This document shows positions 39,569-42,119 of a stretch of DNA of 64,000 nt, in pieces (the stretch's first letter is position 1; each line of letters begins with the position of its first letter). The translations under genes and the position numbers were made by a program. Below the pieces are notes generated by a model. It had not been told where the DNA came from. It made no database searches and saw only the letters and a list, made by a program, of their open reading frames with translations. The stretch comes from Comamonas terrae (GTDB lineage: Bacteria; Pseudomonadota; Gammaproteobacteria; Burkholderiales; Burkholderiaceae_C): assembly GCF_001544075.1 (NCBI RefSeq), contig NZ_BCNT01000003.1, forward strand, positions 1 to 64,000. The letters are read 5' to 3'.

Positions 39569-40525
39569 CTAGGTCGGCAGCAGGAAATCGCGGCTGATGC
39601 CGTAGCCCAGATCGTTGATGCGGTCCAGGAACTGCGTCAGATAGGCATGCAGGCCCGTGGTCAGTATCTCGTCGATGCGGCCGTATTGCAGGTCCGCCAG
39701 CAGGCGGCCGGCCTTGCGCTCGGTCTCGCGCGAATGCGCATTCTTCACTCGCGCCAGGTTCTTCACCACCTCGTTCATGCAGGCGGCCAGCGATCGCGGC
39801 ATGTCGGCGCGCAGCATGAGCAGCTCGGCCACGCGCTCCGGCGTGATCACGTCGCGGTACACCTTGCGGTAGACCTCGAAGGCCGAGACGCTGCGCAGCA
39901 GGGCGCTCCAATGGTAGAAGTCGAAGTTCACGGCGCCGCGCCCGCGCTGGGCGCCATGGTAGTCGCGCTCTATGGCGTGGAACTTCACGTCGAGCAGGCG
40001 CGCCGTGTTGTCGGCCCGCTCCACGAAAGTGCCCAGGCGCACGAAGTACAGCGCCTCGTCCTTGAGCATGGTGCCTATGGTCACGCCATGCCACAGGTGG
40101 GAGCGGTACTTGACCCATTCGAAGAACTGGGCCGGGTCCTGCCGCCAGCCGCCATGGGCGAACTGTCGCTGCAGCTCCAGCCAGGTCTGGTTCTGCGTCT
40201 CCCAGGACTCGGTGGTCAGGGCTCCGCGCACGGCGCGCGCATTCTCGCGCGCAGCCTTGAGGCAGGAGAAGATCGACGAGGGATTGAGCTCGTCGCACAC
40301 CATGAACTCCAGCACGGAATCACGGTCCACCATGCTGTACTGGCTCATGAAGGCCGGAATCAGCTCGCTGATGGACAGCACGCTGTGCCAGCCCCGGCGT
40401 GCATCGTGCATGGCGCTGGGCAGCATGGCCGTGTCATAGGCCACGCTGAGCATGCGCGCGGTGTTCTCCGCCCGCTCCGTATAGCGGGACATCCAGTACA
40501 GATGGTCTGCGGTGCGGCTCAGCAT
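39569..40525 (-). CDS. Alpha-E domain protein
   Basis: A 318-aa all-helical alpha-E protein, beginning LSRTADHLYWMSRYTERAEN and containing the family signature with a second similar stretch, FVERADNTARLLDVKFH. Family members sit beside circularly permuted ATP-grasp proteins and are predicted to help in amide-bond synthesis or peptide tagging. GGAGG precedes the ATG. Next to it (minus-strand upstream) is a degenerate duplicate of its own 5' end. No transglutaminase or Anbu-type protease gene, often in such clusters, is present here. Confidence 0.88.
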   Translation of the reverse strand: MLSRTADHLYWMSRYTERAENTARMLSVAYDTAMLPSAMHDARRGWHSVLSISELIPAFMSQYSMVDRDSVLEFMVCDELNPSSIFSCLKAARENARAVRGALTTESWETQNQTWLELQRQFAHGGWRQDPAQFFEWVKYRSHLWHGVTIGTMLKDEALYFVRLGTFVERADNTARLLDVKFHAIERDYHGAQRGRGAVNFDFYHWSALLRSVSAFEVYRKVYRDVITPERVAELLMLRADMPRSLAACMNEVVKNLARVKNAHSRETERKAGRLLADLQYGRIDEILTTGLHAYLTQFLDRINDLGYGISRDFLLPT

Positions 40526-40668
40526 AGGCCCTCCTTGGGCAGGGAACCCCGCACGCGCTGCGCGCCCGGGCGGTTTTCCGGCGACAAAATAACTGCGGTA
40601 TTTTTTCCTGCCCACTCCCTATGGCGGGACATCCGGTGCAGATGGTCTTCAACGCGGCTTTGCATCAT
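40519..40668 (-). CDS. 49-codon ORF: degenerate tandem copy of the alpha-E N-terminus
   Basis: A small ORF starts inside the ATP-grasp stop (ATG-ATGC overlap) and ends in TGA overlapping the alpha-E start (ATGCTGA). Its product begins MMQSRVEDHLHRMSRHREWA and aligns with the alpha-E protein start MLSRTADHLYWMSRYTERA. The DNA copies (40471-40525 and 40611-40665) align without gaps over 55 bp at about 80% identity. It may be a decayed duplication, yet its overlaps at both ends could couple translation of the neighbours. Expression is not shown. Confidence 0.6.
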   Translation of the reverse strand: MMQSRVEDHLHRMSRHREWAGKNTAVILSPENRPGAQRVRGSLPKEGLC

Positions 40669-42119
40669 TGCTCTCCCTCTTCCAGCACCCAGGTGTCCTT
40701 GGTGCCGCCGCCCTGCGACGAGTTGACCACCAGCGACCCCTGCTTGAGCGCCACGCGCGTCAGGCCGCCGGCCACCATCTGCACCCGGGTGCCGCTGAGC
40801 ACGAAGGGCCGCAGGTCGATATGGCGCGGCGCGATGCCGCTGTCCACCATGGTCGGGCAGGTCGAAAGGCTCAGTGTGGGCTGGGCGATGTAGCCGGCCG
40901 GATTGGCCAGCAGCGCCCGGCGGAAATCCTCGATCTCGGCCTTGCTGGCCGCCGGGCCGATCAGCATGCCGTAGCCGCCCGCACCATGGACTTCCTTGAC
41001 CACCAGCTCGGGCAGGTGGTCCAGCACATAGCGCAGGTCGTCCTGCTTGCGGCACATCCAGGTCGGCACGTTCTGCAGGATGGGCTCCTCGCCCAAATAG
41101 AAGCGGATCATCTCGGGCACATAGGGGTAGACCGATTTGTCGTCGGCCAGGCCCGTGCCCACGGCATTGCAGATATTGACATTGCCTGCGCGGTAGGCCC
41201 GCATCAGGCCCGGACAGCCCAGCGTGGAGCCGGGCCGGAACACCTCGGGGTCCAGGAAGTCGTCGTCCACGCGGCGATAGATCACGTCCACGCGCTGCAG
41301 GCCCTGCGTGGTGCGCATGTAGACCATGTCCTTCTCGACCACCAGGTCCTGGCCTTCGACCAGCTCCACACCCATCTGCTGGGCCAGGAAGGCATGCTCG
41401 AAATAGGCGCTGTTGTACATGCCGGGCGTGAGCACCACCACCGTGGGCTCCTGCACGCCGGGCGGCGCGCTGGCATGCAGGGTGTCGAGCAGCATGTCGG
41501 GATAATGGGCCACGGGCGCCACCGCATGCGAGCCGAACAGCTCGGGAAACAGGCGCATCATCATGCGGCGGTTCTCCAGCATGTAGGACACGCCCGAGGG
41601 CACGCGCAGATTGTCTTCGAGCACATGGTAGATGCCTTCGCCACTGGCATCGGGCACGCGCACGATGTCGATGCCCGCGATGTTGGCATAGACGTTGTTC
41701 GGCACCTTGATGCCTTCCATCTCGGGCCGGTACTGGCTGTTTCCGCCCACCAGCGCATCCGGAACAATGCCCGCGCGCACGATGTCCTGGCCATGATAGG
41801 CATCCTCGATGAACCGGTTGAGCGCCGTCACGCGCTGCACCAGCCCGGCCTGCATGCGGGTCCACTCGCGGGCCGGAATGATGCGCGGAATCAGGTCGAA
41901 GGGGATCAGCCGCTCGGTGCCCGCGCCACTGCCGTCCTTGTCGCCATAGACGGCAAAGGTGATGCCCACGCGGCGGAACACGATCTCGGCCTCGGCACTG
42001 CGCGCGCGCAGGTAGTCCTGCGACTGCCGGCCCAGCCACTGTCCGTAATCCCGGTAATGGCTTCTCAGCCCGGCGTCCGGAGCCGACGGGTCCAGATACA
42101 TTTCGTCCAATAGCTGCAT
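40665..42119 (-). CDS. Circularly permuted ATP-grasp type 2 family protein
   Basis: A 484-aa ATP-grasp protein of the circularly permuted type. Visible are GITFAVYGDKDG, DLIPRIIPAREW, EDAYHGQDIVR, EDNLRVPSGVSYMLENR and a C-terminal LVVNSSQGGGTKDTWVLE. Family members ligate amine and carboxylate groups and pair with alpha-E proteins, as here. The start at 42119 (MQLLDEMYLDPS) is conserved-looking; longer readings run into comEC. The substrate is unknown. Confidence 0.9.
   Translation of the reverse strand: MQLLDEMYLDPSAPDAGLRSHYRDYGQWLGRQSQDYLRARSAEAEIVFRRVGITFAVYGDKDGSGAGTERLIPFDLIPRIIPAREWTRMQAGLVQRVTALNRFIEDAYHGQDIVRAGIVPDALVGGNSQYRPEMEGIKVPNNVYANIAGIDIVRVPDASGEGIYHVLEDNLRVPSGVSYMLENRRMMMRLFPELFGSHAVAPVAHYPDMLLDTLHASAPPGVQEPTVVVLTPGMYNSAYFEHAFLAQQMGVELVEGQDLVVEKDMVYMRTTQGLQRVDVIYRRVDDDFLDPEVFRPGSTLGCPGLMRAYRAGNVNICNAVGTGLADDKSVYPYVPEMIRFYLGEEPILQNVPTWMCRKQDDLRYVLDHLPELVVKEVHGAGGYGMLIGPAASKAEIEDFRRALLANPAGYIAQPTLSLSTCPTMVDSGIAPRHIDLRPFVLSGTRVQMVAGGLTRVALKQGSLVVNSSQGGGTKDTWVLEEGEQ

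Follow-up and report, generated by a model that had tools for sequence, protein, structure and literature searches.

A scattered bacterial leader that opens with a copy of its downstream gene's start precedes two unrelated kinds of gene and probably serves as a control device instead of reflecting random decay

We analysed a window of 64,000 nucleotides from Comamonas terrae (contig NZ_BCNT01000003.1, positions 1 to 64,000). Its minus strand carries, in order, an ATP-grasp gene, a 49-codon ORF and the alpha-E gene (Table 1), and Pfam confirmed the identities that had been proposed for the two neighbours from the letters of the DNA (PF14403/PF04174 and PF04168). The small ORF has no match in a Pfam search. 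Its product, MMQSRVEDHLHRMSRHREWAGKNTAVILSPENRPGAQRVRGSLPKEGLC, comprises 49 codons when counted from the first ATG (40668) and 48 from the ATG at 40665, which is the counterpart of alpha-E's own ATG; after about codon 20 the frame enters a tail of about 80 nt, followed by AAGGAGG and the alpha-E ATG. The original prediction described this ORF as a duplicate of the alpha-E start that overlaps both neighbouring genes, and both observations hold: in an ungapped alignment, 44 of 55 bases agree between positions 40471-40525 and 40611-40665, and the ORF covers the ATP-grasp stop (40665-40667) on one side and terminates on the other at 40519, within ATGCTGA, the alpha-E start. The duplicate does not reflect chance, since a BLAST search of the junction against its own genome recovered the second copy at E 1.1e-7; an alpha-E query against the same genome gave a single match. 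Absent from that prediction were the hairpin tail of about 80 nt, its 11-nt antisense arm and the same build in relatives. The tail scores 89.8 bits at 40517-40614 with R1, a covariance model of the tail of which this sequence is itself a part, and R2, a covariance model of the tail's core, matches one place in the C. terrae genome at E 0.05. The arm pairs here at 10 of 11 positions with the gene when wobbles are included (9 Watson-Crick) and at 9 of 11 with the copy.

Table 1. Features of the ATP-grasp/alpha-E junction in the C. terrae window
Feature	Position	Strand	Evidence and remarks
Circularly permuted ATP-grasp gene, 3' part	40665..42116	(-)	PF14403 E 8.8e-165, PF04174; stop TGA 40665-40667
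Leader mini-ORF	40519..40668	(-)	Open; overlaps ATP-grasp stop and alpha-E start, own stop inside ATGCTGA
Copy of first 20 alpha-E codons	40606..40665	(-)	Diverged: S 4, N 10 over codons 2-20
Structured core of the tail, two hairpins	40544..40608	(-)	R2 E 3.6e-11 (sequence among R2's builders); covariation
Hairpin P2	40584..40606	(-)	7/8 model pairs, by eye from alignment row
Hairpin P3, loop GCA	40545..40577	(-)	Tail alignment and core pair scheme
11-nt arm GTTCCCTGCCC	40537..40547	(-)	Antisense of gene codons 18-22 in most carriers
Copy's counterpart of arm target, GGGCAGGAAAA	40603..40613	(-)	7 bp with arm; partner preferred by predicted folding in C. terrae
Arm target in intact alpha-E, GGGCGGAGAAC, codons 18-22	40463..40473	(-)	Sequence comparison
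AAGGAGG, presumed ribosome-binding site of alpha-E	40530..40536	(-)	Sequence; similar in tail alignment
alpha-E gene	39569..40525	(-)	PF04168 E 1.9e-97; ATG at 40525

The C. terrae junction is one example of a unit that consists of a copy of the first ~20 codons, a tail, a ribosome-binding site and the alpha-E start. A tblastn search of 61 genomes found extra short alpha-E matches (residues 1-31 or fewer) at a fixed distance upstream of the gene in several members of the genus, and when the junctions of 43 Comamonas alpha-E loci (from 53 genus genomes) were read, the unit was present in 11. It measures 140 bp at seven of these, including C. terrae and C. testosteroni, and 134 bp at four, including C. 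aquatica. The 11 carriers contain 15 units, and in every one of them the mini-ORF is open, with its end at +7 of the ATG that follows. C. testosteroni JL40 (L006/L079) has four near-identical 140-bp units before the gene, that is, five alpha-E starts in a row, and is a candidate variable-number locus. Two extra copies are found in C. aquatica NBRC 14918. At L018, of the C. aquatica type, a further ATG-to-ATGCTGA ORF of ~33 codons, hardly alpha-E-like by eye, lies upstream of two units and is possibly an older decayed unit; in another genus member, L071, the ATP-grasp/alpha-E gap of 144 nt holds hairpin-like stretches and AAGGAG with no recognisable start copy, maybe a remnant of the unit.

Beyond the genus, a pattern scan of GTDB contigs, biased towards copies that keep GGATG, returned at least 60 stretches, with a start copy in 54 of the 60 listed. 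The titles of these carriers name Acidovorax, Paracidovorax, Diaphorobacter, Extensimonas, Giesbergeria, Ottowia, Curvibacter, Ramlibacter, Limnohabitans, Polaromonas and Comamonas; the remainder bear wider labels (for L075, L085 and L116, nothing narrower than beta-/Gammaproteobacteria or Pseudomonadota). The six matches without a start copy (L099, L100, L109, L119, L122, L131) come from Opitutales/Opitutia, Spartobacteria and Chitinophagales. In a family search with the alpha-E start, 348 of 397 genomes gave a match, and one to three copies were found at 15 of 100 loci, taken from the best-scoring places listed and spread over genera; copies sharing fewer than 9-10 of 19 residues would go unseen at this detection limit. 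All samples together contain at least 69 distinct carrier loci with 1-4 units each. The Polaromonas loci of the scan carry the leader too, in longer units: tails of units of 177-183 bp (L076, L087, L091, L093, L098, L108, L111-L113, L115, L126) are mostly from this genus, and their first hairpin, GGCATTCGCGGGGATGAC, presumably resembles a dispersed palindromic repeat, as if one hairpin had been swapped for another. L159 has a 206-bp unit in which extra hairpin-like sequence precedes an otherwise normal core, with the mini-ORF still open, and genome G314 has, besides the L187 gene, a second alpha-E gene (L265) with two 149-bp units of its own.

The compact tails, 46 of the 69 loci, share a two-hairpin fold with much covariation; 22 loci of other unit lengths, Polaromonas among them, were kept out of the tail alignments. 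In the 46-tail alignment, under a first model that included a stem P1, 92.6% of cells were paired, and 98 cells had changed on both sides, compared with 26.3 after shuffling. The core alone (P2 and P3), aligned over 35 chosen sequences of both gene kinds described below, had 89.0% of cells paired versus 74.1 in shuffled alignments and 99 double-change cells versus 30.4, and sliding the partners by 1-3 columns left at most 55.8% paired. The number of pairs with any double change was unexceptional in this core alignment (12 versus 9.7, 46 of 500 shuffles). The case for the structure rests on covariation, since single folds are mostly unremarkable: of six sequences folded individually two stand out (z -2.7 and -1.8) and four do not (C. 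terrae, 0.66). Compensation within palindromes could also stem in part from templated mutation. Rfam 15 gave no family match for C. terrae 40300-40900 and seven carrier loci (best E 0.54 and 0.31, far below gathering scores). P1, a helix between the arm and GGGCNGA of the copy that would close a three-way junction, is no longer taken as the main pairing, since the arm agrees better with the intact gene and predicted folding on average favours arm and gene.

R1 matched 39 of 397 family genomes at E 0.01 or better, including places away from alpha-E, several of which turned out to be biotin carboxylase genes whose starts are built in the same way: the opening ~12 codons in copy (MFKKILIANRGE, MKKVLIANRGE), then two hairpins, an arm and the gene. 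R2 at E<=0.05 matched 77 of 397 genomes, with 1-3 matches each and five in one genome; the weak end of these matches (E 0.05) is chance-like. Among 20 R2 places fetched away from alpha-E (E 2e-10 to 0.0012), 19 were biotin carboxylase starts with a start copy; G134:C29, G454:C153 and weaker matches lie outside this set of 20. R1 or R2 places without a start copy were L267, L272, L273 and L306, and among 200 genomes from the rest of the order R2 gave no convincing match (best E 0.0018). Three of the biotin carboxylase genes were confirmed through Biotin_carb_N (Pfam/NCBIfam), and at the two loci checked the upstream region encodes a carboxyltransferase domain, PF01039 and CT_A_B PF02626 (PxpC-like), respectively. 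ATP-grasp and alpha-E are presumably working partners, as are carboxyltransferase and biotin carboxylase. L266 has three units before biotin carboxylase; in L300 and L301, perhaps close relatives, the copy is identical at 32 of 32 positions and the duplication includes the ribosome-binding site. We also scanned 182 sequences for start copies before other hosts (948 kb with overlaps, 5635 candidate starts; the C. terrae stretch is included and the set is enriched around alpha-E and biotin carboxylase loci). Of 191 pairs flagged, the 85 not labelled as either gene were, on inspection, internal alpha-E methionines or opposite-strand artefacts. Since alpha-E and biotin carboxylase leaders supplied both models, R1 and R2 would overlook a leader whose core is different.

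The last 11 nt of the structure are, in most carriers, antisense to codons 18-22 of the intact alpha-E gene (GGGCNGARAAC), and in biotin carboxylase to the R-G-E-I codons (GCGGCGARATY); the target spans the point where copy and gene diverge. With the arm placed by the family consensus, blind to its own gene, pairing at 10 or more of 11 positions was found with the gene in 56 of 82 alpha-E units and with the copy in 12, and in 13 versus 3 of 22 biotin carboxylase units. Pairing with the own gene exceeded all 5000 permutations in both gene kinds, and pairing with the copy did so in alpha-E and was reached by 121 of 5000 in biotin carboxylase, in permutations that leave kinship in place. The third base is Watson-Crick paired with the arm at codon 20 in 79 of 82 alpha-E units and at codon 19 in 78. 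On the gene tree we counted 9 changes of the codon-20 third base in the gene, 11 in the arm and 12 jointly, and for codon 19 the corresponding values are 7, 7 and 9. Independent pairs on supported branches number 4 and 5 and are few, so that tracking is not proven by a sign test (same direction in 3.8 and 3.6, opposite in none, p 0.125); the arm thus tends to follow the gene's silent changes, a pattern consistent with tracking. At the loci whose copy and gene disagree at codon 19, the arm matches the gene 9 times and the copy 3 times. Placing the arm by its best fit to the gene gives 65/82 versus 12/82 in alpha-E, changes of 9/10/11 and 7/5/7, and codon-19 conflicts resolved for the gene in 11 cases and for the copy in one, which is C. 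terrae. In loci kept for their arm-gene fit, the predicted pairing probability is 0.64 with the gene and 0.04 with the copy (64 alpha-E), and 0.88 and 0.00 (16 biotin carboxylase). C. terrae is reversed in predicted folding, with 0.90 for arm and copy and 0.05 for arm and gene.

Comparing each copy with its own gene over codons 2-20 in 82 units, we found 312 synonymous (S) and 145 nonsynonymous (N) differences, with 48.5 of the latter at codon 20, where the hairpin begins. Expectations for a neutral copy were simulated from one pair per locus over codons 2-19 (alpha-E), with 60 draws each and a gene omega of 0.07, estimated from alpha-E pairs and applied to biotin carboxylase as well. The 58 alpha-E pairs from outside Comamonas have S 201.5 and N 39.5, where a neutral copy predicts N 148; the deficit recurs in 22 biotin carboxylase pairs (S 75, N 16, predicted 54) and in 15 pairs of the family sample (S 37, N 5, predicted 25). 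The 11 Comamonas loci show N 42 against 52.5 predicted. Neutral draws were as low as observed in 0 of 60 outside Comamonas and in 1 of 60 within it, and for the C. terrae pair (S 3, N 9, codons 2-19) neutrality is not rejected (57 of 60 draws). By these counts the copied codons look strongly constrained outside Comamonas, with a copy omega near 0.05, weakly so in Comamonas and not in C. terrae, and the constraint outside Comamonas supports translation of the mini-ORF. The same excess of S over N would arise without a functional leader if the leader start were the recipient's native start, the rest had come from a donor and the silent differences were species divergence. We find this hardly credible: among 60 cases, the start of the closest non-carrier is nearer to the copy in 21 and nearer to the gene start in 26, with 13 ties.

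Presence of the leader is patchy (17 changes of carrier state among 142 rows with 24 carriers), and core distance correlates with gene-body distance (Mantel r 0.55, 63 loci). The element is therefore old, largely inherited or moved with the gene and often lost or regained; the counts of carrier state cannot separate gain and loss. The clean loci L010 and L011, whose gene bodies diverge by 3-4% from carriers, appear by eye to be chimeras with the 5' part of the copy and the 3' part of the gene, and recombination of copy with gene would account for the appearance of such clean relatives within the C. testosteroni group. These chimeras, as deletion between repeats would leave them, could have come from an old tandem duplication with a hairpin spacer that undergoes concerted evolution and recombinational loss and has no function. 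Copy numbers of 1-4, the near-identical units of C. testosteroni JL40, the smaller mean distance of a copy to its own gene start (0.094) than among the copies of neighbouring carriers (0.127) and the seemingly neutral evolution of the C. terrae copy point the same way. We nevertheless judge a functionless duplication improbable: an excess of S over N, as found outside Comamonas, is not expected from gene conversion, because conversion resets S and N alike, and neither the tracking of the gene by the arm nor the retention of structure under divergence fits it.

A second alternative makes the leader ORF a by-product. A mobile or homing element of Burkholderiaceae, with a two-hairpin core of ~65-80 nt and a fixed site after an R-A-E or R-G-E triplet near the gene start, would keep the gene intact by duplicating the DNA from its ribosome-binding site up to the point of insertion, and would carry an 11-nt guide complementary to the uninterrupted target. 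The same core at an analogous site in two unrelated gene kinds, an arm complementary across the insertion point that fits the intact target better than the copy, and a target duplication from the gene start to codon 12 or 20 (with the ribosome-binding site in L300 and L301, the two genomes with identical copies) agree with such an element, as do the tandem arrays and the patchy presence. However, by-product copies should not show an omega near 0.05, core distance follows gene distance, and no dispersed copies were seen: the off-locus places fetched were biotin carboxylase starts in all but one case and L306 has no start copy, in searches that would miss a core of other sequence. We regard the mobile element as possible, though rather unlikely. 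Still less do we lean towards a combination of both roles, quite improbable in our view, in which a guided, site-specific homing element inside gene starts, rebuilding a complete start, was domesticated as a translated leader that tunes neighbouring subunits, its guide keeping pace with silent changes to recognise the target.

The end of the mini-ORF bears on a coupling role. Its stop falls within -20 to +11 of the start codon in all 30 representative tails, compared with 16.8 expected for this range, which was chosen post hoc, and overlaps the start codon region in 20 of 30 (14.4 expected, P 0.003). Frame 0 is open in 29 of the 30 tails and the other two frames in 22 and 27. Frame goes with the stop-giving third codon in 47 of 49 versus 1 of 20 cases, on 2-4 independent pairs, a link that seems striking but is phylogenetically thin. 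A plain model in which the element masks the ribosome site found no clear support: shuffling the arm had no effect on predicted accessibility (0.39 versus 0.38, 40 loci), and covering the element increased it clearly only for alpha-E (by 0.17, 50/64) and by only 0.04 for biotin carboxylase (9/16). A minus-one frameshift into alpha-E, suggested by an A-rich stretch and unit lengths of 2 mod 3, was also dropped, because the frame is closed after the A-rich stretch in L012 and unit lengths vary in frame.

We are nearly certain that the element is real and conserved. As read from its sequence, it is a mini-ORF that opens with a copy of the gene's first ~12 (biotin carboxylase) or ~20 (alpha-E) codons and continues through a two-hairpin tail. 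Whether it acts as a translated coupling leader between two cistrons is, in our estimate, evenly balanced. Ribosomes that finish the upstream cistron would begin again on the mini-ORF, traverse the structure and pass to the gene where stop and start overlap or adjoin; translation of the downstream gene would then depend on whether the leader is translated and how the RNA is folded, and the repeated start would stand in for initiation at the gene itself and for its nascent N-terminus. Between the decaying duplication and the leader peptide that the original prediction had offered, the leader ORF is favoured, and decay fits only the peptide part in C. terrae. Decay of the unit as a whole is contradicted by its age and recurrence, by the structure kept in C. 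terrae, by codon constraint outside Comamonas and by the upstream tblastn matches, which end by residue 31 and never run through the tail. Relatives lacking the duplicate and expressing alpha-E normally had been named as the counter-case, which applies in part: as far as presence and frame go, 32 of 43 genus loci have no recognisable copy and an uninterrupted alpha-E frame. Judged on these comparisons, the C. terrae element is at the relaxed end, with an apparently unconstrained peptide and an arm that favours the copy, and with ORF, structure and stop/start overlap kept. Because the peptide appears unconstrained while these three remain, the element may act in C. terrae as an RNA or coupling element, or may be on its way out.

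Overall, this is probably a scattered bacterial leader before two unrelated gene kinds, and a control device rather than random decay. If so, it would represent a class of leader in which the beginning of a gene serves again upstream, for sensing or for handover, and an RNA arm is linked to the codons of that gene; the operons concerned are those of biotin carboxylase, a central enzyme, and of the poorly understood pair of ATP-grasp and alpha-E. Such a leader is easy to miss, because it appears only as an ORF of 40-50 codons between genes. It would also be an instance of apparent joint change between an RNA arm and silent codon positions, and possibly the footprint of an unknown insertion mechanism.

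No such element was described, by title or abstract opening, in the open-licence literature searched. In intercistronic leader ORFs and uORFs of Salmonella and M. tuberculosis, the ORF ends close to the following start codon, as it does here. An intergenic small ORF promotes translation of a Mg2+ transporter in Salmonella (PMC8092293), and uORF translation is associated with B12 riboswitches in M. tuberculosis (PMC11260477); both likewise join a short ORF to structured RNA. Unlike in those systems, the ORF here repeats the first codons of the regulated gene itself, the structure ends in an antisense of the gene's early codons, and two unrelated gene kinds are involved. REP/BIME-type palindromic elements and MITEs share with this element two hairpins of ~65-80 nt, patchy presence and tandem units; unlike them, it was not seen dispersed, being seen only at alpha-E and biotin carboxylase starts, and it bears a gene-specific arm and a duplicated gene start. 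In the guide pairing of group I and group II introns (IGS, EBS/IBS), a stretch borne by the element is complementary to the host on both sides of the insertion, as is the arm described here; in contrast to these introns, no intron core was recognised by Rfam, and the host gene stays whole by means of its own second start.
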